Shown in pieces: positions 6,327 through 63,280 of a DNA stretch of 64,000 bases. The notes under the pieces were generated by a model. It did no database searches. It worked only from the letters and a program-made list of their open reading frames with translations, and was not told the DNA's origin. The number at the start of each line of letters is the position of its first letter. The first letter of the stretch is position 1. Position numbers and translations under genes: made by a program. The DNA comes from Cohnella rhizosphaerae (GTDB lineage Bacteria; Bacillota; Bacilli; Paenibacillales; Paenibacillaceae), in the NCBI RefSeq assembly GCF_029525575.1, contig NZ_JAPDIA010000008.1, positions 1,922,001 to 1,986,000 on the forward strand. Direction: 5' to 3'.

Positions 6327-12550
<6,224 letters not shown>

Positions 12551-38086: not shown

Positions 38087-38088
38087 GC

Positions 38089-39885: not shown

Positions 39886-39911
39886 ATACATGTATTTTAC
39901 TTGTACGTAAT
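39886..39911 (-). promoter_or_regulatory. Operator of the deacetylase/aminotransferase operon
   Basis: ATACATGTAT is followed on the plus strand by TTTACTTGTACGTA. Read on the minus strand it is TACGTACAAGTAAAATACAT, just behind the -10 box. It contains the core AAATACATGTA (39887-39897) found at five sites in this window. Confidence 0.65.
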
Positions 39912-39938
39912 TATACATGAACGTTTTCGATTGTTCAA
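39910..39938 (-). promoter_or_regulatory. Promoter of the deacetylase/aminotransferase operon
   Basis: On the minus strand, TTGAAC (39933-39938) and TATAAT (39910-39915) have a 17-base spacer. Confidence 0.85.
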
Positions 39939-40009
39939 CCCATTTTGTGTGCGCTGTGGAAGGTATCATCACGCTTCAGCCTGCCGCTATAAACTGCCTG
40001 CAGATCGAG

Positions 40010-40038
40010 TTGACCCCTTATTCACATCCTCCTATAAT
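40010..40038 (+). promoter_or_regulatory. Promoter of the cytosolic propeller gene
   Basis: TTGACC (40010-40015) and TATAAT (40033-40038) have a 17-base spacer. The gene is divergent from the deacetylase operon. Confidence 0.85.
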
Positions 40039-40055
40039 ACTATTATGAACATATT

Positions 40056-40070
40056 GCATACATGTATTTA
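40056..40070 (+). promoter_or_regulatory. Operator of the cytosolic propeller gene
   Basis: GCATACATGTATTTA contains the TACATGTATTT core (40059-40069). It lies about 15 bases after the expected transcription start. Confidence 0.6.
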
Positions 40071-40103
40071 AATTAATCTGAAGCAGAGAAAAGAGGAACC
40101 TAT

Positions 40104-41933
40104 TTGTTTAAGCGAGAAGCCGCGTCAAAGCGCTATGAACTCGTCGGCCAGCCCTGCAGAAATTTCAATATTCTCGGTCAAACCTCTTTGATCGACCCGT
40201 TGGACGGGAGAGAAAAGCATGTGCTGTCCAACTTTGCGTTGGGCGGTACGGGAACCGTCGTCATTATCGATACGCAAACGGGGGGAAGGCGAGCAACGCG
40301 AGCTGCCGATAGGGAACGGCGCATGGGGGGATCGTCAACTGGAACAATGAGAAGCTCGTTATCGGAACTTGCGTCGAGCAGGCTTACCTGCATGTCCTCG
40401 ATCTTCGTACGCGTACATGGGCGGAGCCGCTGAAGTCAATCGGCGAATCCTACTTCTGGAAAATGGGATTGGGCTCAGACGGCAAAGTATACGGAGGTAC
40501 GTACCCCGGCTGTTCCCTGATGCAGTACGACCCTGCCACGCATACGCTCGTCAATCTCGGCAAGGTGTCCGACAACCCCAAAAACCTGTACAGTCGGCCA
40601 GTATGGGGAGAAGCTCCCGGCTTCATATTCGTCTATTACGGCTTCGATACCAAAGGATTAAAGGTTTACGACATCGCGAAAGGCACCTTTCAAGAATTCG
40701 GCCGTCCCGAAGCGGAGATCCGGGAAATCAACGATCGCTTCATTTGTACGCAAACCGAAGGACAGCTGGATTTTTACGACCCTCGAACCCTTCAGCCGCT
40801 AGACGATGCCGGCCTTGCCGACCAGCTCAAGCCATCGAAGATCACATTGGCCAACGGCCAACAGCTCCCCTTCATCGAGTTGGAAGACGGTCGGCTGGCC
40901 AGCTTCAGGGGGCAAGACTACTTCATCGTCGATAAGCCTTCGAATCCACAAGATTACGATACGCCGCAACCGATCGCGCTTGCGCAAATTCCGGCAAAAG
41001 CCCCGGTCACGGAAATCTTCACGCTTGTCGAAGACCCGAAGGGCCGAATTTGGGGAGCGAGCGGATTCGGCCAGACGATCTTCCGGTTCGACCCCGCGAC
41101 GGGCGAATACTGGAACTCTTCCTCGGTTTGCAACGAAGGCGGGGAAGTGTACGGCATGGTCTTCGTCGGCGATAGACTGTTCACCGCCTCTTATGTCGGC
41201 GGAGATCATACGGTCTACGATCCGGACCAACCGTGGGATCAGCTGAATAACGTCAATCCCCGGACCTTGCGCTCGGTGGGTCCCCGATTGATCCGTCCCG
41301 AGGGACGGAGCGTCCGCGGACCAGACGGCGGCATCTGGACCGGCTGGTCGGCTAATTATGGCGTCTACGGCGGAGGGCTGTCGCGCGTAGATACCGAGAC
41401 GCTGGAGGTCGAGAACTGGTACGACCCGATTCCCGAGCGGGCGATCGCAAGCGTCGCGGCCGACGATCAATACGTTTATTTTACGACGCACAGCGGCACG
41501 AGCGGACTCTCCACCCGTCACGACATTCCTTGGCAGCTCGGAATATGGGAACCGGGCAAGGGCCTGATCGATCAGTACGACTATCCCGCCAGTCCGAATG
41601 ATACTTACGGCATCGCAGCCTCTCAGGGCAAAGTCGCGTTCGCGGCCGGCGTCGAAATTCATATCTTTGACGTCGCCGAGCGAAAAGTGGTCCACACCGT
41701 CGCCGTCAGTCAGCCCTGCTTGTGGCTGCTCAAGCTCGACGACGAGCATGTGGCCGCCTTCTGTGGCGACGAGTTGATTCGAATCCATCTTCATAGCGGG
41801 GGAAGCGTCCTTACTGTCTCTGCTGCCGGGAACGATTCGAGCGGCTACACTGACGGCCGCCGGAGACATTTACTTCTCCGTTACGACTTCGTTGTACGTC
41901 ATCAGGGCCCGGGACTTGAACGAGCGGAATTAA
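40104..41933 (+). CDS. Cytosolic beta-propeller protein
   Basis: This protein of about 608 residues has no signal peptide. Repeated blades (SDGKVYGGTYPGCSLMQYDP, EDPKGRIWGASGFGQTIFRF, YGVYGGGLSRVDTET) indicate a seven- or eight-bladed propeller, similar in style to the surface protein at 32189-36611. Three extra bases disrupt it: G6 runs at 40280-40285 and 40325-40330 and the G5 run at 41798-41802. Correction gives 609 whole codons ending LYVIRARDLNERN. The TTG at 40104 has AAGAGGA upstream. Propeller-type lyases that act on unsaturated oligouronides are known in such clusters, so an intracellular oligosaccharide lyase is one option, but no catalytic residues can be assigned with confidence. 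Confidence 0.75.
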
Positions 41934-41968
41934 CCCTAGCTGGGAAGGACGAAGCTATCGTGCATATC

Positions 41969-42004
41969 AAAACGCCGTCCGGTCTTGTGACCGGACGGCG
42001 TTTT
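41969..42004. terminator. Bidirectional terminator between convergent genes
   Basis: A perfect stem AAAACGCCGTCCGGT/ACCGGACGGCGTTTT has a six-base loop. It serves the propeller gene (plus) and the lyase-like gene (minus). Confidence 0.95.
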
Positions 42005-42043
42005 GTCTCGATTGCAGCTATGCCCCTCGCTCGCCGCTGTCCC

Positions 42044-45000
42044 CTATTCCGGGGCGCCTGTCGCGGGCTTCGGATCGCCGCTGTCGTCGCCGGAACCCTC
42101 CGCATAGCGCTTGCTCAGCGACAGCGGGATGCGGAACGCGTCTCCGGGCTCGAAGCTGAAGGCGTAGCCCTGCGAGAAATCTTCGCTGTCCCGCCAGGCG
42201 TCAACGACGGAGACGTCGCCGATGCATAGCCGAATACGGTCATGATGCCGGCTTGCCCCTTCGATCCGATAGACGGCGTTGACATCGGCATCGTTGTCGA
42301 TATAGATGTACTTGCCGATCAAAAAGGCCGGGTCTACCTGCTGTGCGACAGCTAGGTCGATCAAGTTGTCGACCGCAAGGGTATCCGTCCTCCCCGCCAC
42401 GAATCCTGTAATGGCCGGCGTGCCGTTCACAAGGTCGCCAAGCCGGGTGCCTTCATGCAAGTAAGCGCGGACAAGCTTGTCGTCTTGCTCCGAATACACG
42501 CCGAAAAAGCCGGAGAACGCAAACTTGCCGGCGACCGTATAAACCGTCGAAGCGTCCAGCGATTGCACGATAAAGTCCGTGCGCCCATCCTTAAACGCCA
42601 CGCGGAGCGCCTTGACTGCGGCCGGGTCTGCCGCAGCCCCGTTATCCTCGACGACAGGCAGCCGCTCGATCGAAGCGATCGTGGATGCGCCCCGATAAGG
42701 CTCGATGACGGAAGTATAAACCGTTCTTGAATCGTTGCTTTTTTACAAACATGTATTCCAGCCTTTTCGGATTCGTCAGCGAATTTTGCGGTGGAATGCC
42801 GTCGGCGATCGTAACCTCTTCATAGTCGCCCAGCATCGTCACCTTGAGATGAACGTCCGTGACGGCGCCGGCCCCGTTGCCGTAACGGTTGTACGTATCT
42901 TGAAGATTCCAGTCGACGCTGAACGAGCCGTTCGTCGCGCCGGCATGCTTGCGAAAATTTTTCACCGACAGTTCGTCCGCGCCCGAGGACTCCAGCTCCA
43001 ACCCTTCATAACGAGTATTGGCGGATTCCGATTCGCCTGAATGGAAGCTGTATTCGTAATTACGGCCGCCGTTCAAATCGAACAGATCGACAATATAGGA
43101 ATCTTCATCGCTGATCCGGATCAGCGCCGTCGTTCGCTTGTACAAGCCGCCCGGCGCATTCGATATGCCGGCCACGCCGTTTGCGTTGACGCTGGCCAGC
43201 TTGACGAATCCGCTGTCGTCGAAGTTCGTCGGCTCGCCGTACGCATCGACGGGCAATCCGTTTACCATGACCGTGTTGTGCGAGCGAGTCGTCCGCGGGA
43301 AAAACGCCAGGGCGTCGCTGGTCGTGTCGGGATAACCCAAATCGGGCATCAGATCGAGATCGTAAGCGATATACCCCAGGTTCAGCGGATCGCCGTGGGC
43401 ATGGCTGGCCGTGCCGCCGTAATACATCCAGAGCGCTCGCTGCGTCGTCCTGGCCTTCCCCCTCGTCGGCGGGTTGGAGCAGTGCATCATCCAGCTCAGG
43501 GTTCGTGAAGCCGGACAGATCGATCCCGTCCCGCAGGATGGCAAGGCCGTAACCGGATAAGTTGTCGGAGCCAAGGTTCAGTTCGCCCTTCTCTTCAATA
43601 ACCTTTCCGATTTTTTGCGATACTGCATTCGGATTGTCGGAGAAAATGTCGAGCGCGATGCCGCTGGCGGTCCTGCCGTTCAATAGATAAATCGCTTGCG
43701 CCAACTTGTCTTCTCCGTATCGGCTGTAGCCCGCAATGAGCTCGTCCAGGCGAATGATAGATACGTCCGGGCACCCCGTCTGGCCGGAATCGCCGATATT
43801 CGGCGTATAATGGCTGGTAAGCAGGAGCGGGTACATCGCCATGAACATTTTGCGAAAGCGCGGATTTTTGAACAGATCCGCATCCAATCCGCCATCCAGC
43901 GTCCCGCCTCCCGGCAGTTCGTAGCCGTCCAGCATCTTGGCGACTTCCAGCCAGTTGGACAGCCACAGGGCATTGTATAAGGGCGCGCTCTCATCGCCCT
44001 GGCCGTCGTGGCTAACGTCGTCTACGAGAATGTTCATGATATTCCCGCCGGTCTTGATATCGTCCTTCCAGTCCGAAGCGCCGGAGCGGAAGTCGAAGTT
44101 CAACATCTCGCTCGTCTCCGGATCATGGTCCAGCACGACCGCCGCCAGCGCCAGCGTCGATTGATGCATGCCCGGATTGCCCTGGAGATCGCCTTTTTTG
44201 TAAGCCTTAAAAATTTCTCGCAGCACGCCGTCTTCGAAGTTCACCTTCATCCGATCGGATTTACTCTTGTTCGCGGAATACGCTTTGCCGTTCAGCACTT
44301 CGGACGCCTTGGCCCCCAAGGTGCCGATCGCCGGGTATACGGCATCGTAGGCATACATGACCGCTTTCATCATTTCATTTTCCCAGATGCTGCCGACGAT
44401 TTTCCCTCGTCCCGGATTGAAGTGCCAGCCGTCGCTCGGCAAAAACCCGTAGTGCCGATAGCCGGAGACGGCTGAATGCGGGAATTGCGACACCTGCATA
44501 TCCGGATATAAATCCGCGATCCGGTCCAGCATGACGAGCGCCGCGTCCGCGTAGCGCTGCTCTCCGGTAAACAAGTAGGCGTCCGATAAATCCTTCAGCG
44601 CCGTCTTAATCATCCCGCCGTTGTACCAGAGCGCCCAATGCGCGTAATAGGCGACGAACGTATACGGGCGACCGTATGCCAGTGTGTCGTTCGGATCGAA
44701 TTGATACCCCATGCCGTCGTCGACGCCCCATTCGGGGTCCAAGATTTGCGCGTCGGTCACAAATTGTGCGATCGACGAGTTGGCCGCGATCTGTTCCCTG
44801 ATCCGATTGACCAGATTGCCCTGCTCTCCCTTCGCGATCAGCTCGTCATTGTGCCGCTTCGCCAGCGCCCGGTCGAACCGCCCGTATTCGTCCAGCCCGC
44901 CCTCGTAATACGCCTTGAAGTCATTGGTCGGAAACTGGACGCCGCATACAGGCGATATGAGCTTCCAATCGACTTGCGTGACGGAAAAACGGTAAGGATA

Positions 45001-45526
45001 ATTTCCGTACGGCTTGATTTCGTTGGCGCACGCCAGACCGCCGTCCAGCTGGTTGACGCCGTAGCTGCGCGGGATGTTCTGCGAGGGAATCATCTCCCAC
45101 AGCTTCTCCAGCGAAAAATCGCCCAGCCACTTGTCGGCCTTGCCGACAGCCAGCCTTTTCGTCTCGGCGGCCCCCCCGAACTGCCCGATGTTGGCGCGGG
45201 CGGCCGATACCTTTTCGTCGGTATAGTAAGACCCCCTCGCCTTAGCCGGCATCAATGGCATAACCTCCGCTTGCGCGACAGTCTGAAGCCCTTTATATGC
45301 CGCCCTCAGCTCTACCGTTCCAGCCGTTTTGGCCACAAACAGCGTTTTCCCGTTCTCGGTTGCGATCTCCCCCCTGCTCCTCCGCTGCGACGGCGATCTC
45401 CGCCTCCTGGGTAACGATCAGCCGCTCGCCGTCGGTCAGCTTGACCGTCGCTCTCAGCAAGACCCGGTCGCCGGCATAGATACGATCGAGCAGCGGTTCG
45501 ACGGTTAATTCTGCGATGTCCGCCAA
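42044..45526 (-). CDS. Cytosolic heparinase II/III-family polysaccharide lyase
   Basis: This protein of about 1159 residues has no signal peptide. A short Ig-like region (1-85) precedes an (alpha/alpha) toroid (about 95-620: SYGVNQLDG, YTFVAYYAHWALWYNGG, GNPGMHQSTLALAA). A heparinase II/III beta-sandwich follows, with YYGGTASHAHGDPLNLGY and TTRSHNTVMVNGLPVDAYG. Its core is closely related to the secreted lyase at 57103-63106 but lacks the binding modules. Three extra bases break it: C6 at 45369-45374, C5 at 43458-43462 and T6 at 42739-42744; correction gives 1160 whole codons. The TTG at 45526 follows GGAGGT. It probably cleaves imported oligosaccharides inside the cell (inference). The TACATGTAT at 42743-42753 is coding, not an operator. 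Confidence 0.85.
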
Positions 45527-45599
45527 ACTGAATACCTCCATTGCGTTTTATCTTGATTCCAAAAATGGTCCCGGCAATCGTATTCACCGTAATTAAAAA

Positions 45600-45619
45600 C
45601 AGTTTAACTACATGTATTT
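45600..45619 (-). promoter_or_regulatory. Operator of the cytosolic lyase gene
   Basis: The minus strand reads AAATACATGTAGTTAAACTG. It matches AAATACATGTAACTTAACTG upstream of the permease gene at 47123-47142 in 17 of 20 positions. Confidence 0.65.
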
Positions 45620-45675
45620 ATCTCGGGAAAAGAAAAGCGCTCCTTGTTCGCGCCGCTGTAAAAATATATATTTAA

Positions 45676-45705
45676 ATTATAGCATGCGAAAAATAAAACG
45701 GTCAA
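45676..45705 (-). promoter_or_regulatory. Promoter of the cytosolic lyase gene
   Basis: On the minus strand TTGACC (45700-45705) and TATAAT (45676-45681) are 18 bases apart, with a TG-extended -10 (TGCTATAAT). Confidence 0.8.
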
Positions 45706-45834
45706 TCCGGCGACCTTTATCGTCAGCGCTTTCAGTCAGGTAATCTAACACTATGCTTCACCAGACATCCCCGCCCTTCTCCTGTAAGCGAATACAGGTT
45801 TATTGTGCCCCGACGGCAAAGAAACGTTTTTGGA

Positions 45835-45863
45835 TTGACCGTCAAAAATAATCATGCTATATT
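45835..45863 (+). promoter_or_regulatory. Promoter of the oxidoreductase/importer operon
   Basis: TTGACC (45835-45840) and TATATT (45858-45863) have a 17-base spacer. A leader of about 135 bases precedes the ATG; I see no riboswitch fold in it. Confidence 0.75.
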
Positions 45864-46001
45864 TTACTCAAATTCGTGATGAAAGGACTTTGCTTATGCA
45901 TTTTCTTCGCTAGTTTGCCGTAATAGCCAACATGTCATTATACGTTACAATTGTTGTTACCTACACCCGAAGAATATAGGTATGCGAAAAGGGGATAACG
46001 A

Positions 46002-47084: not shown

Positions 47085-47122
47085 CCGAATATTAGCAATC
47101 GTACTTTTTTTTTATATCAGAT

Positions 47123-47142
47123 AAATACATGTAACTTAACTG
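47123..47142 (+). promoter_or_regulatory. Operator before the LplB-type permease gene
   Basis: AAATACATGTAACTTAACTG lies between the oxidoreductase and permease genes, about 20 bases before the GTG. No clear -35/-10 accompanies it, so it may control an internal promoter I cannot define or act as a roadblock. Confidence 0.55.
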
Positions 47143-47163
47143 TATTTTATTGGAGGGGATGCG

Positions 47164-48126
47164 GTGTCAACTCTCGTTAAGCAGCGGCAATCCGATTCGC
47201 CGGTCGTCGTCTCCACCCGACAGCGGATTCTGCGAAAGATATGGCGAGATCGTTTTATGTATTTGCTCATACTTCCGGGCGCGCTCTTTTTCTTGATTTA
47301 CCGGTACGTTCCGATGCTCGGCATCGTGATTGCTTTTCAGGATTTCAGTCCGTTTTTGGGATTCTCCGGCAGCGAATGGGTCGGGCTCCAGCATTTCCGG
47401 GATATCTTCTCTTCTGCGGAAATCGGGCGCGTCTTGTGGAACACGATCTCCCTCTCCATGCTGCAAATTTTATTTGCCTTTCCTGCGCCTATCATTTTGG
47501 CATTATTGCTGAACGAAATGCGGAGCGAGCTTTTCAAACGATTTATACAATCGATCGTTTACTTGCCGCACTTTCTTTCGTGGGTTGTCGTCGTAGGCAT
47601 TTTTACGATTTTCTTGCGGGGAGACGGCATCATCAATGACATTTTGAAGCAAGTTTTCGGAATGAATCAGTCCATCGGTTTTTTAACGAATCCCGACTTC
47701 TTCCGTCCCCTAATCGTTTTGCAGGTTATCTGGAAAGAAATCGGCTGGGGAACGATCATTTTCTTGGCCGCGCTCGCGGGTGTCAATCCCGAAATTTATG
47801 AAGCCGCCTCGGTGGATGGCGCGAACCGCTGGAGACGAATGTGGCATATTACGCTTCCAGCTTTGCGCGCGACGATCGTCATCATGCTCATCCTTCGTTT
47901 GGGCAGCGTACTGGACAGCGGCTTCGAGCAAATTTTCCTGATGCTGAATTCCTTTAACCGCGATATTGGCGATGTGCTGGATACTTATGTCTACACCAAA
48001 GGGGTCCGGCAGTCCGATTACAGCTTTGCTACGGCGGTCGGTTTATTTAAAGGTGTCGTAGGACTTGTTCTTGTACTCGGGTCGAACTACATTGCCAAGC
48101 GAATGGGAGAAGAAGGCGTTTATTAA
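47164..48126 (+). CDS. Carbohydrate ABC transporter permease (LplB type)
   Basis: This is a 320-residue membrane permease. FMYLLILPGALFFLIYRYVP is the first membrane region and YEAASVDGANRWRRMWHITL is the EAA loop. The GTG at 47164 follows TGGAGGGG. The gene is intact. It pairs with the permease immediately downstream. Confidence 0.93.
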   Translation: MSTLVKQRQSDSPVVVSTRQRILRKIWRDRFMYLLILPGALFFLIYRYVPMLGIVIAFQDFSPFLGFSGSEWVGLQHFRDIFSSAEIGRVLWNTISLSMLQILFAFPAPIILALLLNEMRSELFKRFIQSIVYLPHFLSWVVVVGIFTIFLRGDGIINDILKQVFGMNQSIGFLTNPDFFRPLIVLQVIWKEIGWGTIIFLAALAGVNPEIYEAASVDGANRWRRMWHITLPALRATIVIMLILRLGSVLDSGFEQIFLMLNSFNRDIGDVLDTYVYTKGVRQSDYSFATAVGLFKGVVGLVLVLGSNYIAKRMGEEGVY

Positions 48127-48141
48127 GGAGGTGCATGGTTC

Positions 48142-49021
48142 ATGAACATCCGTACGTTTCAGGATCGCGTGTTCGACTGGGTCAATTATGCCTTTATGTT
48201 ATTGCTCGCGATTGTAATGATTTTTCCGTTTTTTTTATCTATTTTCCGTTTCGTTCACAACCTACGAAGAATTTTTGCGAAGTCAACTGCTGCTATGGCC
48301 GCGAAAATGGTCGATTGTCGCATACGAGTACATTTTTAGTTCTCACTCCTTCATCCGCTCGCTGCGCGTCACGGTCTATATTACGGTCCTGGGCACACTC
48401 GTTAATTTATTTTTTACAACCACCATGGCCTACGGTCTGTCGCGCAAAATTTATGGTCAAAAATTCATCATGCTTGCGATTTTATTTACGATGTTGTTTT
48501 CCGCCGGGATGATTCCGACGTACTTGGTCGTCAAGGAGACCGGACTGCTTGATTCGATCTGGTCGCTCATCTTGCCAGCCGCGATCGCGCCGTTCAACCT
48601 GATTATCGTAAGACAATTTTTTATGTCGCTCCCTCAGGAACTTAGCGAATCTGCGCTGATCGACGGCGCCAGCGATCTGGTCATTTTCCAGAGAATCGTG
48701 TTGCCGTTATCCAAGCCCATACTGGCTGCATTCGGTCTGTTCTATGCGGTCGGCCATTGGAACAATTACTTTGCCGGCATCCTTTATCTCAACGATCAAA
48801 CCAAATGGCCGATTCAGGTTATTCTCCGGCAAATCGTCGTGCAATCCGATGCGATGAACGCGCTGGGCGTCATCAATCCGGAAATGCTGGCCAATCAACC
48901 GCCGCCGGAAACGGTGCAAATGGCAGCTATCCTGATTTCGACATTGCCGATTCTTATTGTTTATCCGTTCCTGCAAAAACACTTCGCGAAAGGGGTGATG
49001 ATCGGCTCGATCAAAGGTTAA
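48142..49021 (+). CDS. Carbohydrate ABC transporter permease (LplC type)
   Basis: This is a 292-residue permease. The EAA loop is SESALIDGASDLVIFQRIVL, and the end YPFLQKHFAKGVMIGSIKG is typical of LplC-like proteins. GGAGGTG, overlapping the end of the previous gene, sets the ATG at 48142. One extra base in the T8 run at 48229-48236 breaks the frame inside the first membrane segment; removing it gives IFPFFYLFSVSFTTYEEFL and 293 whole codons. Confidence 0.9.
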
Positions 49022-49117
49022 GCCTAGCCTAGCCAGCAAGCCAGCCAACCAGCAAGCATGCAGTCGGCAATGCCAGAAAAAATCAGGGAATACGAACCGA
49101 ATCTGGAGGGGAATCAA

Positions 49118-50748: not shown

Positions 50749-50792
50749 CGGCTGCCGCGGTCCGATCTGGACAAGAACAGCAATAAAGCTTT

Positions 50793-52336: not shown

Positions 52337-52399
52337 CAAAAAATTCCATCCCTTATTCATATGTTGGGCGCAGATCTACTGTTCTGCGCAAGCGGGCGG

Positions 52400-52645: not shown

Positions 52646-52709
52646 TAGCGCCACTATTTAGCTGAAACGTACCTTATTCTATCAAGTGGGCACGACGAAC
52701 TCGAATCAC

Positions 52710-55700
52710 TCAGCGCACCGTTACCGTAATAACCTCGCTTGAGGTCGAACCGGCCGCGTTCTCCAGCACGCAGCGGTAAGAATAAACGCCGGGCGGCTTC
52801 CCCGTCAACGAAGTAACCGCAGTCTGAGCATTCGGCGTCGCGCCTGCGAGCTGCTGCGAATCGATGAGCACATCATTCTCGTACAAGCGGTAGGTTGTGC
52901 CGTTCGTACCCCACCATAGATTCATGGTGATCCGGTAACTGCCGTCGCCGTCATGATTGTCGTGCGATAGAATTGCCTTGGCCGGGGATGCGTTCGTGAC
53001 GGTTACCGTGTGCTCATTACTTAAAGCGGCGCCAAAATCGTTCGTCAACTCGGCTCGATACACATAGGTTCCATTCGCCTTTCCGGATATTGCCGTGACG
53101 GCGGACTGGGCATCAGGCGAACGTTCTTCAAGCGATTGCTCGTCAATCAATCTGCCGTTCTCATACAGCCTGTAACGGCTGCCGTTGTTCCCCCACCACA
53201 GATTCATCCGGATCTGATAATTTCCGTCCAGAAGCCCCGTATCATAACCGTTATCATCGGACAGAACAGGCTTGCCCGGAGCCTCTTCAGGGTGATCGGC
53301 AGCGATCGCGATGCGGTGTGTCCCCGCCGACAACAATAGGCTGAGCTTGCGGGCGGACTTGTCGAATATATATTCGCCGGCAGTCAGCGGCCTGCCGTTC
53401 AGCGTAACCGCCGATACGTACGGAACGTACAGACTTACGTTTTCGTCCGCCACCGTTTCGACCGTCGCCTCCCATAGCCCGTAGCTGCCCTGAACGGCGG
53501 CGTTGACTGGGCCGGATGCTTGCAGCAGCGCGACGCCGTTTGCCTGAAGCGATGTTCCTCTTGTCATTGCATAGGCTTGAATACGACCGTTTACGCTGCG
53601 TGTGACGACCGTTTGGTCGGCATCGCCGGCAATGCCGTCAACCGAATAGGGAGAGGCGCCTGTCTTGAACAGTACGGAGTCGACAGTTTCTTCCGCCTCG
53701 CCGCGCCATACCTTGGAGCCGATCACTCCATCGTTCTCCAGCAGCTCCGCATTCAACGTTTTCTGCGGCTCGCCTGGCGCTTCCGTTCCGTCCAGCTTCA
53801 ATTGAATCCCGTCTACGCCTATAAACGTATTGGCGGAAAGGGCATTTTTGCCGACCAGCTCGAACTTGACCGTATGCTTGCCAGCCGCCAGTTCGATCTG
53901 ACCGAGCGGGAATGGCGCCGCCGTTCGGACATTCGCATCATATCCGTCGAATATGCCTCCGACAGGCTGCCCGTCCAAGTAAGTTTGAATTTTGCCATAT
54001 GACGGCGATTGAATAAACTTTCCATTGATCGTATAAGTACCGGGTTTGTCAAGCTCAAACTCCAGCGTCATATAATCTCCCGCCGTCTCGGCCCGGTAAA
54101 ATACCACTGCCGCACCGTCCACGTTGACAATCTTGAACTCTTTCTCCGAACTTTCTTTGGGAGGCAGCAGGTCTTCCGCTTGAATAATATCCGGCTGCAG
54201 AAGGGGCGTCGCCTTAAGCACAGTGACATAGCGGTAGTCTTTGGAAGCCGCGCCGCTTGAGACCTTCGTGATATAGCCCATACTTTCGGCGCCCGGATAC
54301 GGACCTACCGTAATCGGAAGCTTGTCGGGGCTCAAAAATTTGGCGTTCAACGCGGCCTTGCCGTTGCGGGTATACAGATCGTTGCCCATCGTCGTCTGTC
54401 CCGCCGTGCCGTCCTGTCCGTCAATGGCAAATTCGCTGATGTTTCCATTGTTAAGAACCCAGTCGAATGTCCGATTCGCGTTGGCCGACAGGTCGTCGAA
54501 CATGACGTAGTAGTCCGGCTTGATCATGACGATATGCCGATCGAACTTCGTAAGCTTCGGGTTCTCGTAAGCCGCCGCCGCCGAGCCTTTAACGTAATCG
54601 TAACCGGGCGCATGCATCCCCTTGGTCAGCGTTCCGCCGCCTAATCTGGACTGCCCTTTGCCGTCGACCTGTATCGTGCTGTGACCGTCCCTGATCGTAA
54701 ACTCTTTCAGAGGACCGGCACTGAGATCCTGATACCCCGGATCTGCGGCGATCCACGAGTTGTTCGTTGCGATCTGGAAGCTGTTCTGGTCATAGTGATT
54801 GTGCCCGAGCGCCGATTGGTTGCTGGCAAAAGCAAGCATGGTATCTTCCTTCTCCCATCCCGTTCGGAGAAAGGACCATCCGATCGGGTCGAGCGTCGCC
54901 GAAGATGGCAGGCTGTCGTCTGGCTTCGAGATGACTGCCTGAGGGTTGAAGTACAGGAAGCTGACGACCAGGTCGCTGAGCACTCGCGATTTATCCAGAA
55001 AGTAGCCCGCATCGCCATTGCCGAGCCAGTTGTTGATGACGCTCATCGTCATCGTAGGCGCGGAATCCAACGCGGAATCGGAGAAATTGGCCAAATTGCT
55101 TCCGCCGGGAGCCATGGCATACACAACCCATCGGACGAAAAAGTCATTGATGAACGGATGGTCGATATATTCTCGAAGCCCGGTCGTCCGAGACATGATA
55201 TCGACGGCCCGCATCAAGTTGTCGAGCGAGTAACCGGTGTAGCCGAGGCCTTCCTGCTGGCCGGAGCTCATTCTGGTGTCAAGGTACCAGGAGATGAAAT
55301 TGGCCGCGCGCGTCAAATATTTGTTGGCGTCCGGGTCCGTCCCCAGTAAGACGGATGCACCGGCGGCAAGCGCGGAAGCGCGCAGCATCTGGATATTGTG
55401 ATCGACTTTGGTCCGTACATCCGCGTACAACGGACGAAGTCCTTTCCCGATCAGCGCGTTCTCGATCCGCGTTCTTTCCGATGCGCTAAGCTCGTCATAC
55501 AAGATGTCGTAAGCCATGCTCACGCCCAATGTCAAGTGAGACGTGTCCAGACATGAACTGCCGCAGCTGTAAGTCGGGTCCGTCCACGTATTCCAGTTTG
55601 TCAAAGAAAGCAGCGTCTCTTTGGCTTTGTCGGCAAAGGCCTGCTCTTGGGTGACCGCGTAAGCTAAACCGAGAACTTCCAGCCGATACTGGATCGCTCT

Positions 55701-57014
55701 TCCGATCGCCGTCCAATAAGGGTAGACGCCATCCGTAAATCCGGGGGGATTCGGCATCGGCTGTGGCTGGACGGGCGGAAGCGATAACGTTACCGTATAC
55801 CCGCCGTATGCGGTGATGGTGTAGCTGGTATCCTGCAGGTAACCTCTTGCGACACTCTCCAGCCGGCTCCACAACAGCTTGCCCGTCTGGCCGAAAGCAG
55901 AATCCGTCGCATTGGCCGCTTTGCCGCGAATGGCCGGAAGGTCCTGCTTCGTAAAATACAAACGCGGATGATCGGTGACCAGAAGCGGAAACTCCCTTAC
56001 AGGTTCAGGCGAAAGCGGGCCATACCCGGCGGCGTCGAAATAAGCCGTCCCCACATTGCCCGTGTTCAAATAAAGGAGTAAAGTGGCGTAAGCCGTCCCG
56101 GCAGGAGCGGTTTGTTCGATGACCAGCGGCGTCCACTTTCCGATGGTGGAATTGGCGTAGGTCGCGACGCCGATTCGCTGATTCGCGCTGTTCCAGAATT
56201 CAAGATAAAGCTCGGAAATGCCGGATGCATTGTAGGATTGAACGGATGCCTGATAGACCTCCCCGGGCGAAGCCGGAAGCCGAATGCTGCGCATACCGTT
56301 TCCCGTTGTTGGGGAAGAATCGTCCATACGGATGCTGTATTGGCCGCTATAGACGATGTCCGCAACGGAAATGGCGCCGCTCGTGTCGCTATACCTCGTC
56401 CAGTTGGCAGGCGCGCCGTTCGCTGCCGTCTCAAAATCCAGATTCGGATCAGATGCACCCGCTGCTTCCCCGAAAGAGGCATCGTCGTAGTAGCTGACGG
56501 CAATGCAGTCGTCGCATTGATAAAGCAGCAAGGTCGCATAAGCGGAGCCTGCCGGCGCTTTCATCGTGATGGCGACCTGATTCCAAGCCCCCGCGGATGG
56601 GTTCCACTCGGCCTGAACGCCGATCCGCTGATTCGCGCCGTTCCAGAATTCCATATACAGCTGCGACTTTCCTGTCGTATCGAATGCGTATACGCTGCCG
56701 CGATAATCCTTTCCTTCCGCAACGGGTATTTTGGCGCTTCTCAGCCCTGTCGCCCCGCCCTTGACCGGGTCTATCAACTTAACGCTGTACGTCCCGCCAA
56801 GAACATATACGCTGTCGGATACGGACGCGATGGTCGAGCTGTTAGGGAGCGGCTCCCATTGCGAAGGTCGTCCTTCCGACGTCAACTCAAATCCGGGATT
56901 CGGCAACATTTCCGTAGCGGCTTCCGCTGCGGTCGTACTCGGCCACAGCGTCACGCACATCCCCCATAGGATGACGAATGCCAAAAATCCGCTTATTCTG
57001 CTTTTTTTCATCAT
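52710..57014 (-). CDS. Secreted multidomain heparinase II/III-like lyase
   Basis: The protein has 1434 residues and is intact. After a signal peptide (FLAFVILWGMCVTLWPSTTA) come two CenC-type binding modules (about 30-185 and 190-340). An (alpha/alpha) toroid starts near DHPRLYFTKQDLPAI at 350. The heparinase II/III beta-sandwich is marked by GWSFLRTGWEKEDTMLAF and ALGHNHYDQNSFQI, with the conserved His/Tyr cluster. A CBM-like beta domain lies around 1010-1090. Two repeats resembling the N-terminal domain of chitinase A close it (1245-1335 and 1345-1434: DGNYQIRMNLWWGNNGSRYR). AGGAGGAG precedes the ATG. It follows the larger lyase gene after 88 bases and shares its ends by duplication, although its catalytic core is diverged. 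The substrate is unknown, probably a uronic-acid polymer. Confidence 0.87.
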   Translation of the reverse strand: MMKKSRISGFLAFVILWGMCVTLWPSTTAAEAATEMLPNPGFELTSEGRPSQWEPLPNSSTIASVSDSVYVLGGTYSVKLIDPVKGGATGLRSAKIPVAEGKDYRGSVYAFDTTGKSQLYMEFWNGANQRIGVQAEWNPSAGAWNQVAITMKAPAGSAYATLLLYQCDDCIAVSYYDDASFGEAAGASDPNLDFETAANGAPANWTRYSDTSGAISVADIVYSGQYSIRMDDSSPTTGNGMRSIRLPASPGEVYQASVQSYNASGISELYLEFWNSANQRIGVATYANSTIGKWTPLVIEQTAPAGTAYATLLLYLNTGNVGTAYFDAAGYGPLSPEPVREFPLLVTDHPRLYFTKQDLPAIRGKAANATDSAFGQTGKLLWSRLESVARGYLQDTSYTITAYGGYTVTLSLPPVQPQPMPNPPGFTDGVYPYWTAIGRAIQYRLEVLGLAYAVTQEQAFADKAKETLLSLTNWNTWTDPTYSCGSSCLDTSHLTLGVSMAYDILYDELSASERTRIENALIGKGLRPLYADVRTKVDHNIQMLRASALAAGASVLLGTDPDANKYLTRAANFISWYLDTRMSSGQQEGLGYTGYSLDNLMRAVDIMSRTTGLREYIDHPFINDFFVRWVVYAMAPGGSNLANFSDSALDSAPTMTMSVINNWLGNGDAGYFLDKSRVLSDLVVSFLYFNPQAVISKPDDSLPSSATLDPIGWSFLRTGWEKEDTMLAFASNQSALGHNHYDQNSFQIATNNSWIAADPGYQDLSAGPLKEFTIRDGHSTIQVDGKGQSRLGGGTLTKGMHAPGYDYVKGSAAAAYENPKLTKFDRHIVMIKPDYYVMFDDLSANANRTFDWVLNNGNISEFAIDGQDGTAGQTTMGNDLYTRNGKAALNAKFLSPDKLPITVGPYPGAESMGYITKVSSGAASKDYRYVTVLKATPLLQPDIIQAEDLLPPKESSEKEFKIVNVDGAAVVFYRAETAGDYMTLEFELDKPGTYTINGKFIQSPSYGKIQTYLDGQPVGGIFDGYDANVRTAAPFPLGQIELAAGKHTVKFELVGKNALSANTFIGVDGIQLKLDGTEAPGEPQKTLNAELLENDGVIGSKVWRGEAEETVDSVLFKTGASPYSVDGIAGDADQTVVTRSVNGRIQAYAMTRGTSLQANGVALLQASGPVNAAVQGSYGLWEATVETVADENVSLYVPYVSAVTLNGRPLTAGEYIFDKSARKLSLLLSAGTHRIAIAADHPEEAPGKPVLSDDNGYDTGLLDGNYQIRMNLWWGNNGSRYRLYENGRLIDEQSLEERSPDAQSAVTAISGKANGTYVYRAELTNDFGAALSNEHTVTVTNASPAKAILSHDNHDGDGSYRITMNLWWGTNGTTYRLYENDVLIDSQQLAGATPNAQTAVTSLTGKPPGVYSYRCVLENAAGSTSSEVITVTVR

Positions 57015-57102
57015 CGGTCGACTCCTCCTGATTAATCAAGTCTAGAGTTCCTCCGTGCTGACGAACGATGGAGCGAATCGGCTTGCCGATTTCACGCTGG
57101 CT

Positions 57103-60100
57103 TCACGATGGCTTCACGATGACTTGTATGGTGCCGCTCGACGCAACTCCTGCCCCGTTCTCCAGCTCGCACCGGTATTCATACGTGCCGGGAGGTCGGC
57201 CGGCGACTGCCGTTACGGCGGTTTGAGCTTGCGGCGTCGCTTCCGTCAAGGCTTGCGTGTCGATCAATACGCCGTTCTCGTACAGACGATACGTGCCGCC
57301 GTTCGTCCCCCACCACATGTTCATCTTGACGTTATAACTGCCGTCGCCGTCATCGTTGTCGTGGGACAACACGGGATCGCCCGGCGCGGCCTGCGCGACC
57401 TCCACGATGCGGACGTCGCTGCGCGTCGTTCCGTAAGCGTTGATGAGCTCCGCATAATAGCGGTACGTCCCGTTTTTCCGGTAGGCGACCGACGTCACGG
57501 CGGACTGTGCATTCGGAGAGTCGTCCGCCAGCTGCTGCGTGTCGATCAGAATGTCGTTTTCGTACAGCTTGTAGGTCCGGCCGTTGTCCCCCCACCACAT
57601 ATCCATTTTGATGGAATAGTTCCCGTCCCGGAGACCGGTATCGTAGCCATTGTCATCGGATAGAACAGGCTTGCCCGGTGCTCCCTTGCTGGGTGTCTCG
57701 ATGCGGATGGAGAACTGCTTCTGCGGTTCCGCATGACCGGCTCGATCCGTCGAGCGGTACATCAGCACATAGGCGCCGCTCTTGTCTAAAGCAATCGGTC
57801 CATCGTACCTCTTCCAATCGGCCGGCTCCCCTTCGGGTACAAGCGAGTACTCGGTTCTCTCTACACCCGAGAGGGGGGTCCGTTGCCTCCACGGCGAGCG
57901 ATACTTCCGATGTGTACACGCCGTCCGTCCGCTTCGTCCCCTCTGCCTTCACGCTGCTCACGGGCGCGTCCCGATCGATGCGTACCGTCAATGACCGGAT
58001 GGGCTCTTCATAGCCCGACGCATCGGTGGAACGGTACTGGATCTCATGCATGCCGCTATTGCCGATCGCTACCGGATCGGTGTACGGAATCCACGCTGTC
58101 CCTTCGTTCAGACGGTAGGCTGTGGCGACGCTTCCGCTGTCTGAGCCGTATACGGACAGCGCAACTGTCGCTTCTCCGGTGAACCAGCCGTTCTGCTGCT
58201 CTCCGCTTACTTGGGCGGTTGTCGTGATCGGCGATATTTGACGGGTCAGCGGGATGCGGAAGGACGCATTCTCCTCGATATCGTAGCGATATCCCTCCGC
58301 AAAGTTGGCTGGATTTTTGTAGCCCCTAATGAGCGTAATATCTCCGATATCCAGCTTGTAGCGGTTGTCTCCCAGATCCGTTGCGCCACGAATTCGATAT
58401 GCGCCGTTCCGGACGCCGTCGTTCGCTACGTAAATGCTGGCGCCCGCAAGCGCATCGGTCGACACGCCGTTCATGTTCATTTCCACGACAATGTCATTCT
58501 GGAAGGCCAGCGCCTTCGTAAAGCCGATTACCGTACCGGTTAACGCACCCGCGAACGGTTCAACCTCATTTCCGATAGGGGCCATATAAGACCCGTCATG
58601 CACGTACCGATATTCGGTCTTGCCGTCCTTCTCCGAGTACACGCCGATGAACCCTTTGAACTTCAGCTTGTCGTCAATGATATATTCGACGTCGGTCCGC
58701 TGCGCATAGACGATATAATCGATTCTGCCGTTCGCCAGCGTGACCTTCACCGCTTTCGCTTCATTGCCGTCTATTGCCTGACCGTCCCGCTTCACGACGG
58801 CAGGCTCGATCGACGCGATCTTACGGCTATCCTTATAAGGCTCGATCACCGAGGTGAACAAGCTGTCCAGATTCGTCCCGCTGCGGTGAGCGAGAACGTA
58901 CGAAAGGGCTTTGGGATTGCCGGGCTTGTTCTGAGGCGGCACGCCGCTTGCCAGAGCCACATCGTCGACAGCTCCGAGCATCGTCAGCCGCAGATGGATG
59001 TTCGCCGGCTGCGTCAGCACTTTCCAGGTATCCGCGATATTCCAGTCCACGCTGAACTGGCTGGCCGGGTTGCTGTCGCGCGACACGTCCTTCAGATAGT
59101 GAAAGCCGCTCCCCTTGTAGGTATAATTGCACACGCTGTCTACGCATTCGGCATAGTCCACATCCGGACCGGCGTATGTTCCGGTTGCCTGCGGTACCAT
59201 CGTCAGGCCTTCCGTAGTGACGGTGCCTTCCGCTCCGTGGAAGCTGAAGACGTGATCGCCGCCTCCCTTCACGCGGAAGAAATCAATGCCGTACGAATTC
59301 TCGTCGTCAATCTTGATCATCGCCGTCGTCCGCTTGTATTGTTGCGTTTGCGGATAAACGTTCGGCGCTTCGACATCCGTCAGCTTCACGCGGTCCGTAT
59401 CGTCAAAATGCTTGGGCTGCGCCACCCACTGCGGATTCTGCTTGCTCTTGTCGACGACAACCGTGTTATGGCTGACCGTGTTCACCACCCATTGGGCCCG
59501 GTGCATATCGACGGTATCGGCAAATTCCGGATACCCGAGATCGGGCGAGAGGTCAAGACCGAAGCTATGCACCCCGATCTCCAGCGTGTCGGCATGTCCG
59601 TGGCTGGACGTTCGGCCGTAGTGCATCCAGAAATCTCGCAGGGTGTTCTGCGGCCCTGCCTGATCCCGCTTCTCCCTCGCAGCTTCGTCAAGCAGCAGGA
59701 GCTTGCGGACACCCATCTTATAGTTGCTGGACGCTGCAGCTTTGCCGATCCCCACGAAGCTGATTTGATGCGGACCTGCGGACAGCCGCACGTTTCCGAT
59801 CGCTTCCAGCTGATTCATATTCACGCCGGAGAAGTCCATTTCCTTAATTGGGTTTCCGTCGATCGCTACGCGGTAAATGCCGTAGGAGGAAGCTCTGAAA
59901 GGAAGGAGATCGATTTCGTAGTCTTCTGAATCCGGCACCGTAAACTGATAGCTGATAGCTTCCCCTGCTTGATTCGCCTCGAGCTGCATCGTTCCCGAAT
60001 CCTCAAACAGCTTTGCGGGAACGGTTTGACTTACGATTTCCATGGAAGGAAATGCGTAGCTCACGCCAAATGCGTTTGACAGATTGATTCCGTCCCGCAG

Positions 60101-63100
60101 CACGGCGAAGCCTTGACCGGCCAGACTGTCGCTTCTCAGGTCAAGCGTTCCTTCCTTGGCTACAACGCCGCGAATCTGATTGGCGACGTCATTCGGGTTG
60201 TCCGAAAATACGTCCAGATGCAAGCCGTCCGCGCTGTTGCCGTTCAGGAAATACGCCATCTGCGCATAAAGCGGATCTCCGAATTTTTCATATGCTTTTA
60301 ACATCGTCGTCTTTGAGAATACATGAGAAGGAAGGCCGGGATCGCCGGTCTTGCCCGTATCGCCGATGTTGGCGAAATAATTGTCGCTTAGAATTAAAGG
60401 AATGTTGGCGTTGAACATTTTGCGAAACTTGGCGTTCTGGTATAAATCCGCATCCGGATACAAGTCGTAACCGTCCAAAATATCCGCGATCAGTCGATAG
60501 CTGTCCAGCCAGCCTCCGCTGTAGCCCGGAGCGCCCTCGTCGCCTTGTCCGTCACGGTCGACCGCATCCACTAACGTATTAAAGACTCCGCCTCCGTCGG
60601 ACGCCAACATATAATCGAGCCAAGTTTTCGTTTCCGGGAGCGTATCGAACACCCTTGCCGCCAAAGCCAGCGTGCTTTCGTGCGTCCCTTTATTTCCGCT
60701 GATCTGGCCCGCCTTCACTGCGGGGAAAATCTGGCGGATCAGTCCGTCTTCGATATTGCGCCGGATTTCGGCTCCCGTTTCCTTTCCGTTCGCAAGTCGA
60801 TATTCCTCTGCCTTCGCCGAAAGGAATTGGATCAACTCGGGATCGTCCATCGCCGGAAAAAAGGCATCGTAGGCCGAGATGAATTCTTTGATCAGGATGG
60901 TCTCCCAGATCGAGCCGACAATCTTGCCCAATCCGGAACCCCCATGGGAATTTAAATAGATCGTTTTGTCATGGAGCATCGTATCCATATCCGGATAAAC
61001 ATCCGCGACGCGGTCCAGCACGACCGTGCCTGCCCGGGCATACTTGGGATCGCCCGTATACAGGTATGCATCTCTCATCGACACGATCGAAGCGCCGACA
61101 ACGCCGTCCAGATACCATTGCGCCCAATGGTTGTAATAGGCGACGAACGTATAGCGATTGCCCTTCTCGTCCACCCATCCGAATCCGTCGTCCACGCCCC
61201 ATGTCGGTCCTTTCTCCGGATAAAGCGTGTTGACCAGCAGACTGCGATCGGCCAAGGACGGCTGGAATACCCCGTGCTCGTCCAATCCGCTGCGATAATA
61301 AGCGCCGAAATCGTTCGTCGGGAATTTATAGCCGCTGCTCGGATCGACGATTTTCCACGGATCGTTCAACGGGTCCAGCTTGTACGGATAATTCCCGTAT
61401 TGATCGATCTCTCTGCCGGTAATCGGACTGCCCAGCACTTGGTTGACGCCGTAGCTGCGCGGAAGTTGAGGACCCGGTATGCTCTCCCATAAGTAATCGA
61501 GTCCCTTCTCCAAATATTTGTCCGCCTTGGCAACGGCGTTATTGCGCAGATCGGCCGCCCATTTGTAAGAGATCGCGTTCTCTCGGGCTGCTGCGACTTT
61601 TTCCGGCGTGAAAAAACTCGAACGGGTTTTGAAATTCGCCGTGTCGGCCGACAGCCGGAACCTCGCGTCATCAAAGTAAACGGTTCCCGCCTGGCCTGGC
61701 ATCATGCCGATACGAAGAACCGCATATAAAGCGCCGGCAGGAGCCACGCCGCTCGCGGCAAGCTGACTCCAACTGCTTGCACCTCCTTCGCCGTCGGAAG
61801 CAACCGCAGATAACAGGACTGCGTTATCGTTATAAAATTCCAATTGAACGCTCGGCGTCCCTTGCATGACGTAGGTCTGCAGGGTGGCGGCGTAGCGCTC
61901 GCCCGGCATGACGCGAACGGGATCGCTTATTAGCGTCGGCGCCGCACCGCCTCCCGATGCGGACAGCTTCACGCTCTTTACGCCATCTTTCGCCTGCTCC
62001 GTACTGATGGATACGGTGCCTTCCTTCTCCGTCCAATTTAAAGGCTTGTTTTGAACCGCGGTTTCAAAACTGCCGTTGTTCAGGTTGGACGACGGGACCG
62101 GCAATACCTTTCTGAAAGTAACGCCGTCAAAATAGGCGGTTCCTTGGTTCCCATCGTTCTGATACAAGAGAACCGTGGCATACACCGATCCTGCGGGCGC
62201 TTTCATTTCGACTTCGAGCGGAACCCAAATATTGTTAGAATTGTTCGTTAAGTTTTTCACGCCGATCCGGGAGCCCGCGCTGTTCCAATACTCCAGGTAC
62301 AGCTCGGATCGGCCTGACCGGTTAAAGGAATAGGCCGCCGTCCGATACGTCTCCCCTGCCTGGATCGGCAAGCGGATGCTTCGGTACCCGTTGCCGCTCG
62401 TTGCCGAACTGTCCTCCAGCTTCACGCTGTAGGCGCCGCTGTAAACGACATCCGTCACGGACTGCTGGGTCCCCTTATCGGTTTTGGACCAGTTCGCCGG
62501 AGCGCCGTCCACAATATTTTCGAAATCGCCGTTCAAGTCGTTTGCCGGGGGCGCTTCCCGGACGGATGCATCGTCATAGTAACTGACGGCCACGCAGCTG
62601 TCGCATTGATACAGGAGCACGGTGGCGTACGCAGCGCCGGCCGGCGCTTCTTTCGTAATCTTCACTTGATTCCACCGCCCTGCGGTCGTGTTCCACTCCG
62701 CCTGAACGCCGATCCGTTGATTGGCGTTATTCCAAAATTCTAAATATAACTGGGAGTTGCCCGTCGTGTCATAAGCAAAAACGCTGCCAACGTAGACCGC
62801 TCCCGGCGATACCGGAACCCGCGCGCTCCTGAAGCCCGTCGACTTCGTCGTGCTGGCGTCCTCCAGCTTCACGCTGGCCAGGCCGCTTTTGACATAGGCG
62901 CTGTCCGTCACGGATGCGATCACTCCATCGGCGCCGACCTGCGCCCATTGCGAGGGCTTTCCGCCCGTAACCGATTCCATGCCGCCATTGGGCAGCAGTT
63001 CGCTGCTATAGTCGACTGCAACCGCAATCTCTTTGGACCCTATTGCTGCCAGTAGACTCCATACCATCATGCAAGCCAATAAACCGCTGATTCCGCTTTT

Positions 63101-63106
63101 TTTCAT
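57103..63106 (-). CDS. Secreted giant heparinase II/III-like lyase
   Basis: The protein has about 2000 residues. A signal peptide is followed by three CenC-type modules (35-180, 185-335, 340-495), then an (alpha/alpha) toroid (500-950: RSYGVNQVLG, YTFVAYYNHWAQWYLDGV, NKGTHESTLALAA). An inserted beta module follows (1035-1110), then the heparinase II/III beta-sandwich with HYGRTSSHGHADTLEIGVHS and NTVSHNTVVVDKSKQN. Two Ig/OmpL47-like domains (1650-1830) and two chitinase-A-N-like repeats (1835-2000) end it. The core matches the cytosolic enzyme at 42044-45526. An extra base in the G6 run at 57873-57878 separates the last 220 residues; removing it gives DPLSGVERTEYSLVPEG and 2001 whole codons. 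It has its own promoter and operator. Confidence 0.87.
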
Positions 63107-63253
63107 GCCCGGTAAACGCCTCCAAATTTAAATAATATGCGAGTGTCCCCATGCTGTTGAATTTCGGAAAGAGCTGCGTGTTTTCATACTGGCTTGCAGC
63201 CAGTCCGCTCCCTATTCACCCCCTTCTATACCGTGCTTTGTCCTCCCAATAAC
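63107..63253. other. Leader of the secreted lyase operon
   Basis: This is the 5' untranslated part between the operator and the ATG at 63106. No further element is recognised. Confidence 0.5.
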
Positions 63254-63280
63254 AAACATGTATTTTACATGTATGTAATA
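63254..63280 (-). promoter_or_regulatory. Operator of the secreted lyase operon
   Basis: The minus strand reads TACATACATGTAAAATACAT followed by GTTTG, a tandem pair of ACATGT cores. It is very similar to the operator at 39886-39911 and lies just after the -10 box. Confidence 0.65.

Follow-up and report, generated by a model that had tools for sequence, protein, structure and literature searches.

Five tandem-repeat sites as candidate operators of a local polysaccharide-breakdown regulon encoding a GntR-solute-binding-protein fusion in Cohnella rhizosphaerae

Does a short sequence that recurs in front of polysaccharide-breakdown genes in Cohnella rhizosphaerae represent one operator, and which protein might read it? 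In the window, the 64,000-nucleotide stretch of DNA analyzed here, an earlier note placed an exact 11-mer, AAATACATGTA, at 39887-39897(-), 40059-40069(-), 45609-45619(-) and 47123-47133(+), and all four copies are found there. The fifth site, AAATACATGTT, is present with one mismatch, although its true place is 63255-63265(-), one base off the reported position. Allowing at most one mismatch, the 11-mer has nine matches in the window compared to 0.30 expected, and the highest count among 100 shuffles of the window was 4. The five reported places account for eight of the nine, while the ninth (2414) lies within an ORF. TACATGTATTT is common to all five sites, far above chance, and all of them are non-coding and 5' of the genes previously described. 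The proposal of one operator for five transcription units is supported. The conserved element, however, is not one 11-bp core but two 11-bp repeats, and the 20-base identity claimed between 45600-45619 and 47123-47142 comes to 17 of 20 positions when counted by eye.

The two-unit consensus is WACNTGTATWT WACNTGTATNT, with a degenerate first unit in operators B, C and D. Operator A (39887-39908, +; units TACATGTATTT and TACTTGTACGT), which is conserved in the closest relative (G164), precedes an operon on the minus strand (36986-39814) comprising a split deacetylase-like gene and a DegT-family aminotransferase gene. The former is called deacetylase-like on the strength of a 45%-identical relative of paralogue 24783 in the window, for which Polysacc_deac_1 matches below the cut-off only. 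Operator B (40048-40069, +; units AACATATTGCA and TACATGTATTT; one mismatch in the G164 copy) is followed by a frame-split gene (40104-42229, +) that the earlier note labeled propeller-type and for which no Pfam family was matched. A frame-split heparinase II/III-type gene (42642-45336, -) is preceded by operator C (45598-45619, +; units AACAGTTTAAC and TACATGTATTT). Operator D (47123-47144, -; units TACAGTTAAGT and TACATGTATTT, read on that strand) precedes an operon of two ABC permeases and an extracellular solute-binding protein (SBP), the latter frame-split (47164-50748, +), and operator E (63255-63276, +; units AACATGTATTT and TACATGTATGT) precedes two genes for large proteins of the heparinase II/III type that also have CBM matches (52710-63106, -). 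No RNA families or tRNAs were found in the window.

Several of these sites lie close to predicted promoters. Two -10 boxes described before, ending at 39910 and 63288, were both recovered by a promoter scan. The first belongs to the promoter-like sequence TTGAAC-17-TATAAT (39910-39938, -), with operator A beginning 1 bp past the -10 box, and the second to TTGACG-17-TAAACT (9 of 12; 63288-63316, -), with operator E beginning 11 bp past it. Operator B is likewise located behind a near-consensus promoter, TTGACC-17-TATAAT (40010-40038, +), and begins 9 bp past its -10 box. TTGACC-18-TATAAT (45676-45705, -) is followed by operator C after another 56 bp, and ahead of operator D the scan predicted no promoter. 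Across loci, the two-unit site is frequently just behind a predicted -10 box, as judged from counts made without a control set.

A recurring 11-mer might also be an interspersed repeat or a chance occurrence rather than an operator. The genome-wide motif search suggested in the earlier note yields 17 exact copies compared to 2 for the reversed pattern, and 11 of the 13 copies outside the window sit in one unrelated interspersed repeat. The bare 11-mer was thus rejected both as a genome-wide marker and as the operator. The flanks of this repeat are, however, absent at the window sites, and at zero mismatches the two-unit pattern is restricted to these five sites (site A on the other strand) in the 8.5 Mb genome. 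Moreover, orthologous loci in Paenibacillus and in several Bacillus-like genera carry the two-unit form as well. An origin by repeat or chance, already contradicted by the family and held-out searches described below, is extremely improbable.

Among 295 genomes of the family, the strict two-unit pattern has 13 matches across seven genomes. Twelve of them belong to six genomes that encode an orthologue (at least 46% identity) of a GntR-SBP fusion protein of the window, and all twelve lie within about 16 kb of the orthologue. The reversed control gave eight single matches in eight genomes, none among those six. Hence, the strict form occurs in 6 of the 7 genomes with such an orthologue and in 1 of the 288 others (Fisher p ~6e-11, calculated without correction for relatedness and therefore overstated, because related genomes are not independent). 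It is absent from four genomes whose relatives of the fusion are 33-37% identical.

The association was also seen in a held-out set of orthologue loci. From 51 loci, two from Rhizobium and one from Caldilineaceae (22-23% identity) were dropped, leaving 48, and removal of L220, L245, L256 and L237 as already examined left 44. The sites of L237 are identical to those of an already examined locus. An 11-bp repeat is present in 26 of the 44 loci, compared to at most 3 for each of the other spacings between 6 and 30 and to a null mean of 0.55 (maximum 2; 40 resamplings). The strict pattern matched 17 of these loci and its reversed control none. The exact repeat is missing from 18 of the 44 (flanks of up to 10 kb; some with a degenerate first unit), and a weight matrix built from 15 sites in six of the first seven genomes beats the best reversed control in 28 loci but not in 16.

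A frameshift divides the GntR-SBP fusion (50903-52360, -) into two ORFs, 51452-52360 and 50903-51322, while the G164 orthologue is 98% identical and has an open frame of 489 aa. The N-terminus of the window protein matches the winged HTH family PF00392 with 53.5 bits (gathering cut-off 27), and the second domain matches SBP_bac_1 and SBP_bac_8. This fusion of a GntR HTH with an SBP_bac_1/8 domain is present in three window proteins, in which Pfam detects no UTRA, FCD/FadR_C or aminotransferase domains. A confident structure model joins the winged HTH to a sugar-SBP fold, and in a modeled relative the first helix begins at residue 2. None of 43 solved-chain matches had a best stretch spanning both the HTH and the SBP domain. 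Judging by titles and abstract openings, no published description of GntR-SBP fusions was found. The fusion had been named earlier as the natural candidate binder, and by co-occurrence, held-out test and neighborhood it is the best candidate, whereas binding itself is something we infer. Very probably, the five sites are the operators through which this fusion controls a single local regulon that includes its own gene.

Since the operator moves together with the entire locus, co-occurrence by itself does not pinpoint the regulator gene, and in L213 an SgrR-type regulator is also found ~7.5 kb away. Another regulator encoded elsewhere, for example of the AraC/YesN or LacI type, could bind the sites with the fusion as a mere neighbor. 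AraC-type proteins typically bind direct repeats, which would fit such a binder. Furthermore, the lone strict match in G120 lies between a gene that by eye appears to encode a YesN-type response regulator and an SBP gene, and no GntR-SBP protein was noticed among the ORFs listed for this 20-kb stretch. Yet the ORFs scanned in the operator-bearing part of the window and ten more in the operon of the Psychrobacillus locus L248, several of which matched no family, yielded no further transcription-factor family, and the presence of the GntR-SBP orthologue predicts the site. In G014 and L217 the site is directly 5' of the GntR gene, and weaker sites at the GntR gene start in L219, L221 and L258 score below the best control; the window's own copy of this regulator gene has no operator directly before it. 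The unit sequence also broadly shifts with the GntR clade. Taking both sides together, control by another regulator is quite unlikely.

The geometry of the site bears on how a GntR head might read it. GntR operators are usually, not universally, palindromes of the form NyGTNxACNy, according to parts of PMC4494728. One ordinary GntR dimer might bind a twofold dyad, ACATGTA-TTT-TACATGT, with the near-palindromic unit mimicking a direct repeat. Operator E is indeed a perfect 17-bp dyad, the palindrome ACATGT occurs in many sites, the unit is nearly self-palindromic, and the flanks, in particular the left one, are partly compatible with a dyad. A shared-hexamer scan found inverted repeats in 5 of 7, 6 of 24 and 6 of 40 loci in groups 1, 2 and 3, respectively. 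Pairs of two non-palindromic units at 11-bp spacing are, however, direct in 13 cases, all of one polarity, and inverted in 4. Among 57 sites assigned to one target gene, 22 are self-symmetric and match both strands, which would suit a dyad, whereas the asymmetric ones are skewed in polarity, with 29 opposite and 6 the same. Moreover, non-self-palindromic repeats occur in other clades, TGATGTACATC/TGATGTACTGA and TACCAAACCTA/TACCAA among them. The head-to-tail repeat is thus favored, and the dyad is the less likely arrangement, in our estimate an unlikely one. The AraR-like palindrome invoked in the earlier note was rejected: TTGTACGTAA of the first site reads TTGTACTTAA in G164, the sites are tandem repeats, and polarity favors the direct repeat. 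Two further counts were set aside. Period 11 ranked highest for 7-mer repeats in groups 2 and 3 and second to 9 in group 1, which proves little because 12 control loci scored similarly at period 12; the best single repeat per locus was uninformative (period 11 best in 10 of 78 rows, period 12 in 9).

With two head-to-tail units of 11 bp, the recognition sequences would lie on one side of the DNA at a distance of one helical turn. The sequence itself shows that the sites are alike, are confined to this locus within the genome, are conserved together with the regulator, have an 11-bp period and a strand polarity, often lie near a -10-like box and broadly agree in unit sequence with the regulator clade. 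From this we infer binding, repression and autoregulation, along with ligand, ligand effect and stoichiometry, and the best reading of the fusion is an autoregulated repressor and cytosolic oligosaccharide sensor that would bind head-to-tail repeats. When substrate is lacking, the protein would occupy the operator, often just past the -10 box, and block transcription of its targets, and in some relatives the site directly 5' of the GntR gene would provide autoregulation. Lyase products might enter via the permease/SBP transporter, and an oligosaccharide bound to the cytosolic SBP-type domain would make the protein leave the operator. As the same two-part switch is found at five promoters and is kept beside the regulator in relatives, the polysaccharide-breakdown cluster has the appearance of a self-sufficient regulon under a repressor of a kind that has been little described. 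A readable operator would allow the target genes of the regulator to be listed from sequence, and thus genes acting jointly on one polysaccharide to be found. It also lets one ask how a GntR head binds a tandem rather than a palindromic site.

AraR of B. subtilis joins a GntR head to a LacI/GalR-type sugar-binding domain, has a palindromic operator and controls polysaccharide genes. It resembles the fusion in pairing a GntR head with a sugar-binding-protein-like domain, but its LacI-like domain and palindrome differ from the SBP_bac_1/8-type domain and tandem operator here. In SgrR-type regulators, such as the one in L213 (SgrR_N + SBP_bac_5; 18963-20714), the second domain is also of the solute-binding-protein type, while HTH family and SBP class differ. 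E. coli NanR has a FadR-type effector domain in place of the SBP domain and shares the head-to-tail operator repeats that are favored here over a dyad. As described in parts of PMC8012715, NanR is a GntR repressor of a sugar-acid regulon on head-to-tail (GGTATA)3, its dimers assemble cooperatively along the repeat, with a 32-residue N-terminal extension underlying cooperativity, and ligand weakens binding. This repeat is shorter than the unit here, and the extension contrasts with a first helix at residue 2. FarR and NagQ are HutC-type GntR proteins with direct-repeat sites, and the TGTATWT portion of the unit is similar to the FarR repeat TGTATTAWTT (parts of PMC4494728); unlike the fusion, these HutC members carry no SBP domain. 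The MocR subfamily (GabR, TauR, PdxR) likewise fuses a GntR domain to a large protein of metabolic origin, which is aminotransferase-type rather than SBP, and its operators are often direct repeats, with motifs that often mix direct and inverted boxes (parts of PMC4494728 and PMC5320631).

GntR-SBP fusions are widespread in this family and offer a collection of repressors, presumably responsive to sugars, whose operators differ. The unit sequence broadly tracks the regulator clade, and some divergent clades have other unit sequences with the same 11-bp period. The repeat is found in group 1, in 15 of 24 group-2 loci (all unit types) and in essentially one group-3 clade. Tentatively, and with some doubt, the fusions might constitute an undescribed Bacillales GntR subfamily, of which some genomes encode several paralogues. 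Each member would sense oligosaccharides autonomously for its own locus and read head-to-tail repeats that are spaced by one helical turn and share a TGTA-like core. The unit would be tuned by residues in and around the recognition helix, with the helix-region variants SRVSIRK/SRTSVRK, SRNSLRQ, SRKSVRH and SNKSIRK, which would amount to a first outline of an operator code. Against such a code, various helix types accompany the AC-type unit (SRSSVRR in L163; SRKSVRH in L170 and L212), and the clade of window gene 1822 has the GATG-like helix SNKSVRK without a shared repeat. No shared 11-bp repeat was found in five group-3 sets, including this clade. The group-2 paralogue of the window (30696-32075, +) has related ACTTRT repeats upstream at ~30560-30620, and evidence for a shared 11-bp repeat at this gene is weak. 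The group-3 paralogue (1822-3387, -) belongs to the clade without a shared direct repeat, and the group-3 protein has matches in 60 of the 295 family genomes at E <= 1e-50.

Five sites in the window, operators A to E (39887..39908, 40048..40069, 45598..45619, 47123..47144 and 63255..63276), carry the 11-base core described in the earlier note, which we find where it had been placed except that the last site is off by one base. At up to one mismatch, the core matches nine times in the window, against 0.30 expected and a maximum of four over 100 shuffles. Eight of the nine matches make up the five reported places, each of which is non-coding and upstream of genes of the polysaccharide-degradation locus, as claimed. 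These genes encode heparinase II/III-type proteins, two ABC permeases with a solute-binding protein (SBP) and a DegT-family aminotransferase; two further operator-preceded genes, encoding a deacetylase-like protein and a "propeller" (a label from the earlier note), are without a Pfam match. Judged by comparison between genomes, the operator is a pair of tandem 11-bp units, TACATGTATTT+TACTTGTACGT in operator A and AACATGTATTT+TACATGTATGT in operator E, the first unit being degenerate in operators B, C and D. The closest relative, G164, carries counterparts of all five operators, one with a mismatch.

The genome-wide specificity expected of the operator holds for the longer motif WACANNTNNNNTACATGTATNT and not for the bare 11-mer. 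In the 8.5 Mb genome (window: contig 9, 1922001-1986000), the exact core occurs 17 times, against 2 for the reversed pattern, and the bare 11-mer fails because 11 of the 13 copies outside the window sit in one ~100-bp interspersed repeat whose core reads CCTGCA..TACATGTATTTTCTG..CGAC. This repeat has 18 genome matches at up to three mismatches (reversed control 0). Its copies lie near position 10001 of the extracted loci L001, L002, L005 and L007-L012 (only the right-hand part in L010 and L012) and at 7501 and 12502 of L004. The remaining two core copies lie in GC-rich DNA (L003) or stand alone (L006). With zero mismatches, WACANNTNNNNTACATGTATNT is found genome-wide at the five window sites only (site A via the other strand); one mismatch adds one place.

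The proposed binder is GntR-SBP (50903-52360(-)), in which Pfam places a GntR domain (PF00392) ahead of SBP_bac_1/8; the G164 protein is 98% identical. In an AlphaFold2 model of the L213 orthologue (mean pLDDT 90.8), the winged HTH ends at about residue 74 and the SBP fold begins at about residue 84. The nearest solved folds are oligosaccharide-binding SBPs, e.g., Lmo0181 with cycloalternan and AbnE, and in none of 43 matched PDB sequences does the best stretch span both domains. GntR-SBP may thus be a cytosolic oligosaccharide sensor. It is the only transcription-factor family matched among the scanned ORFs of this part of the window and among ten ORFs of L248, several ORFs being without a family match; L213 also encodes an SgrR-type regulator (SgrR_N + SBP_bac_5; 18963-20714(+)) ~7.5 kb from its GntR-SBP gene. 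The window gene and four others (38089-39814, 40104-42229, 42642-45336 and 49155-50748) are split by frame and form single open frames in G164; small indels are so numerous that assembly errors rather than decay are suggested.

Orthologues of at least 46% identity occur in 7 of 295 Paenibacillaceae genomes. A strict pattern written from their loci, ACNTGTATWTWACNTGTA, matches 13 times across 7 of the 295 genomes: twice in each of six orthologue genomes, always ~16 kb or less from the regulator gene, and once at an unrelated place in G120. The reversed control gives eight single matches in eight genomes, including G014, the seventh orthologue genome, and none of the other six. G014 has the B/C/D operator form twice, ahead of permeases and at the regulator gene start, where 19 bp separate the ORF from the start of the second unit. 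Since the pattern was derived from orthologue loci, it was tested on loci outside its making, namely 44 of 51 related loci (3 remote and 4 already seen were removed) from Paenibacillus, Bacillus, Psychrobacillus, Ornithinibacillus, Metabacillus, Cytobacillus, Neobacillus and Fredinandcohnia. Of these loci, 26/44 contain AC.TGT-N5-AC.TGT, against at most 3/44 for every other spacing from 6 to 30 and a mean of 0.55 loci (maximum 2) in resampled sequence. The strict form is found in 17/44 (its reverse in 0/44), and a weight matrix from 15 sites of six of the first seven genomes beats the best reversed control in 28/44.

Many sites can be read both ways because the unit is nearly palindromic. Inverted hexamers common to 5/7 loci of group 1 (relatives of the window regulator 50903-52360), and a left flank of the held-out sites that suits either reading, would allow the operator to be a dyad. 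This is nevertheless improbable, as held-out pairs in which both units are non-palindromic at 11-bp spacing comprise 13 direct and 4 inverted, all 13 direct pairs share one orientation relative to the regulator's strand, and asymmetric sites are oriented against transcription in 29 cases and along with it in 6. These sequence comparisons favour a direct repeat.

Promoter-like sequences place -10 boxes 1, 9 and 11 bp ahead of operators A, B and E, and 56 bp ahead of C; the promoter scan accepted none ahead of D. Related loci supplied 71 intergenic sites (57 with a single target gene, 14 ambiguous); the operator follows the -10 by 0-19 bp in 33/57 promoter-like hits around the single-target sites, a count only indicative because it lacks a control and some of the bases scored as promoter belong to the operator. 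A repressor bound just behind the -10 would block initiation. At the GntR gene start lie the top-scoring matrix site of L217, which exceeds the best reversed control, and weaker ones of L219, L221 and L258, which all fall below it; these sites suggest autoregulation.

GntR subfamilies include FadR, HutC, MocR, YtrA, AraR and PlmA, and direct-repeat exceptions named among GntR proteins are FarR, NagQ, NanR and MocR proteins (PMC4494728, PMC5320631). NanR, three dimers of which bind (GGTATA)3 cooperatively (PMC8012715), is the closest working model for GntR-SBP on a tandem operator. A literature search covering titles and abstract openings found no published description of a GntR-SBP fusion.

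With 60 additional GntR-SBP loci, we counted, for each repeat period, the loci with a gapped hexamer in common. Among direct repeats period 11 stands out, with 6/7 loci of group 1 (no other period in more than 2), 10/24 of group 2 (relatives of 30696-32075; no other in more than 4) and 10/40 of group 3 (relatives of 1822-3387; no other in more than 5); inverted repeats attain 5, 6 and 6 loci, respectively. Units vary between clades (AC.TGTAT, TACCAAACCTA, GGTACAGGTAC, TGATGTACATC, TCTGATATATA) and broadly track the regulator tree; on the reverse strand, TACCAAACCTA and GGTACAGGTAC read as TGTACC-type, near AC.TGTAT. Recognition helices SRVSIRK and SRTSVRK go with AC.TGTAT, SRNSLRQ with TACCAA, SRKSVRH with GGTACA and SNKSIRK with TGATGTA. 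This pairing has exceptions, the AC pattern also accompanying L163 (SRSSVRR), L170 and L212 (both SRKSVRH). AC-pattern regulators at 70% identity form 9 clusters from 11 entries in group 2, mostly distinct, and 3 from 11 in group 3. A search for a shared repeat in the clade of window 1822 (helix SNKSVRK) found none, and five group-3 locus sets, this one among them, gave no shared 11-bp repeat; the 11-bp rule is therefore supported for part of the family only.

Similar units with 10-bp spacing lie near a more distant GntR-SBP relative in G194 (L072/L073, joined positions 14962, 19901 and 21454). ACTTGT/ACTTAT units are repeated upstream of the second window GntR-SBP gene (30560-30620), and the G164 counterpart (joined positions 55826-55870) is arranged differently. 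Four GntR-SBP paralogues lie within ~87 kb, at 1822-3387(-), 30696-32075(+) and 50903-52360(-) of the window and, 23 kb beyond it, at contig 9 2009010; at least three adjoin transporter or polysaccharide genes. A fifth lies at contig 9:871574.
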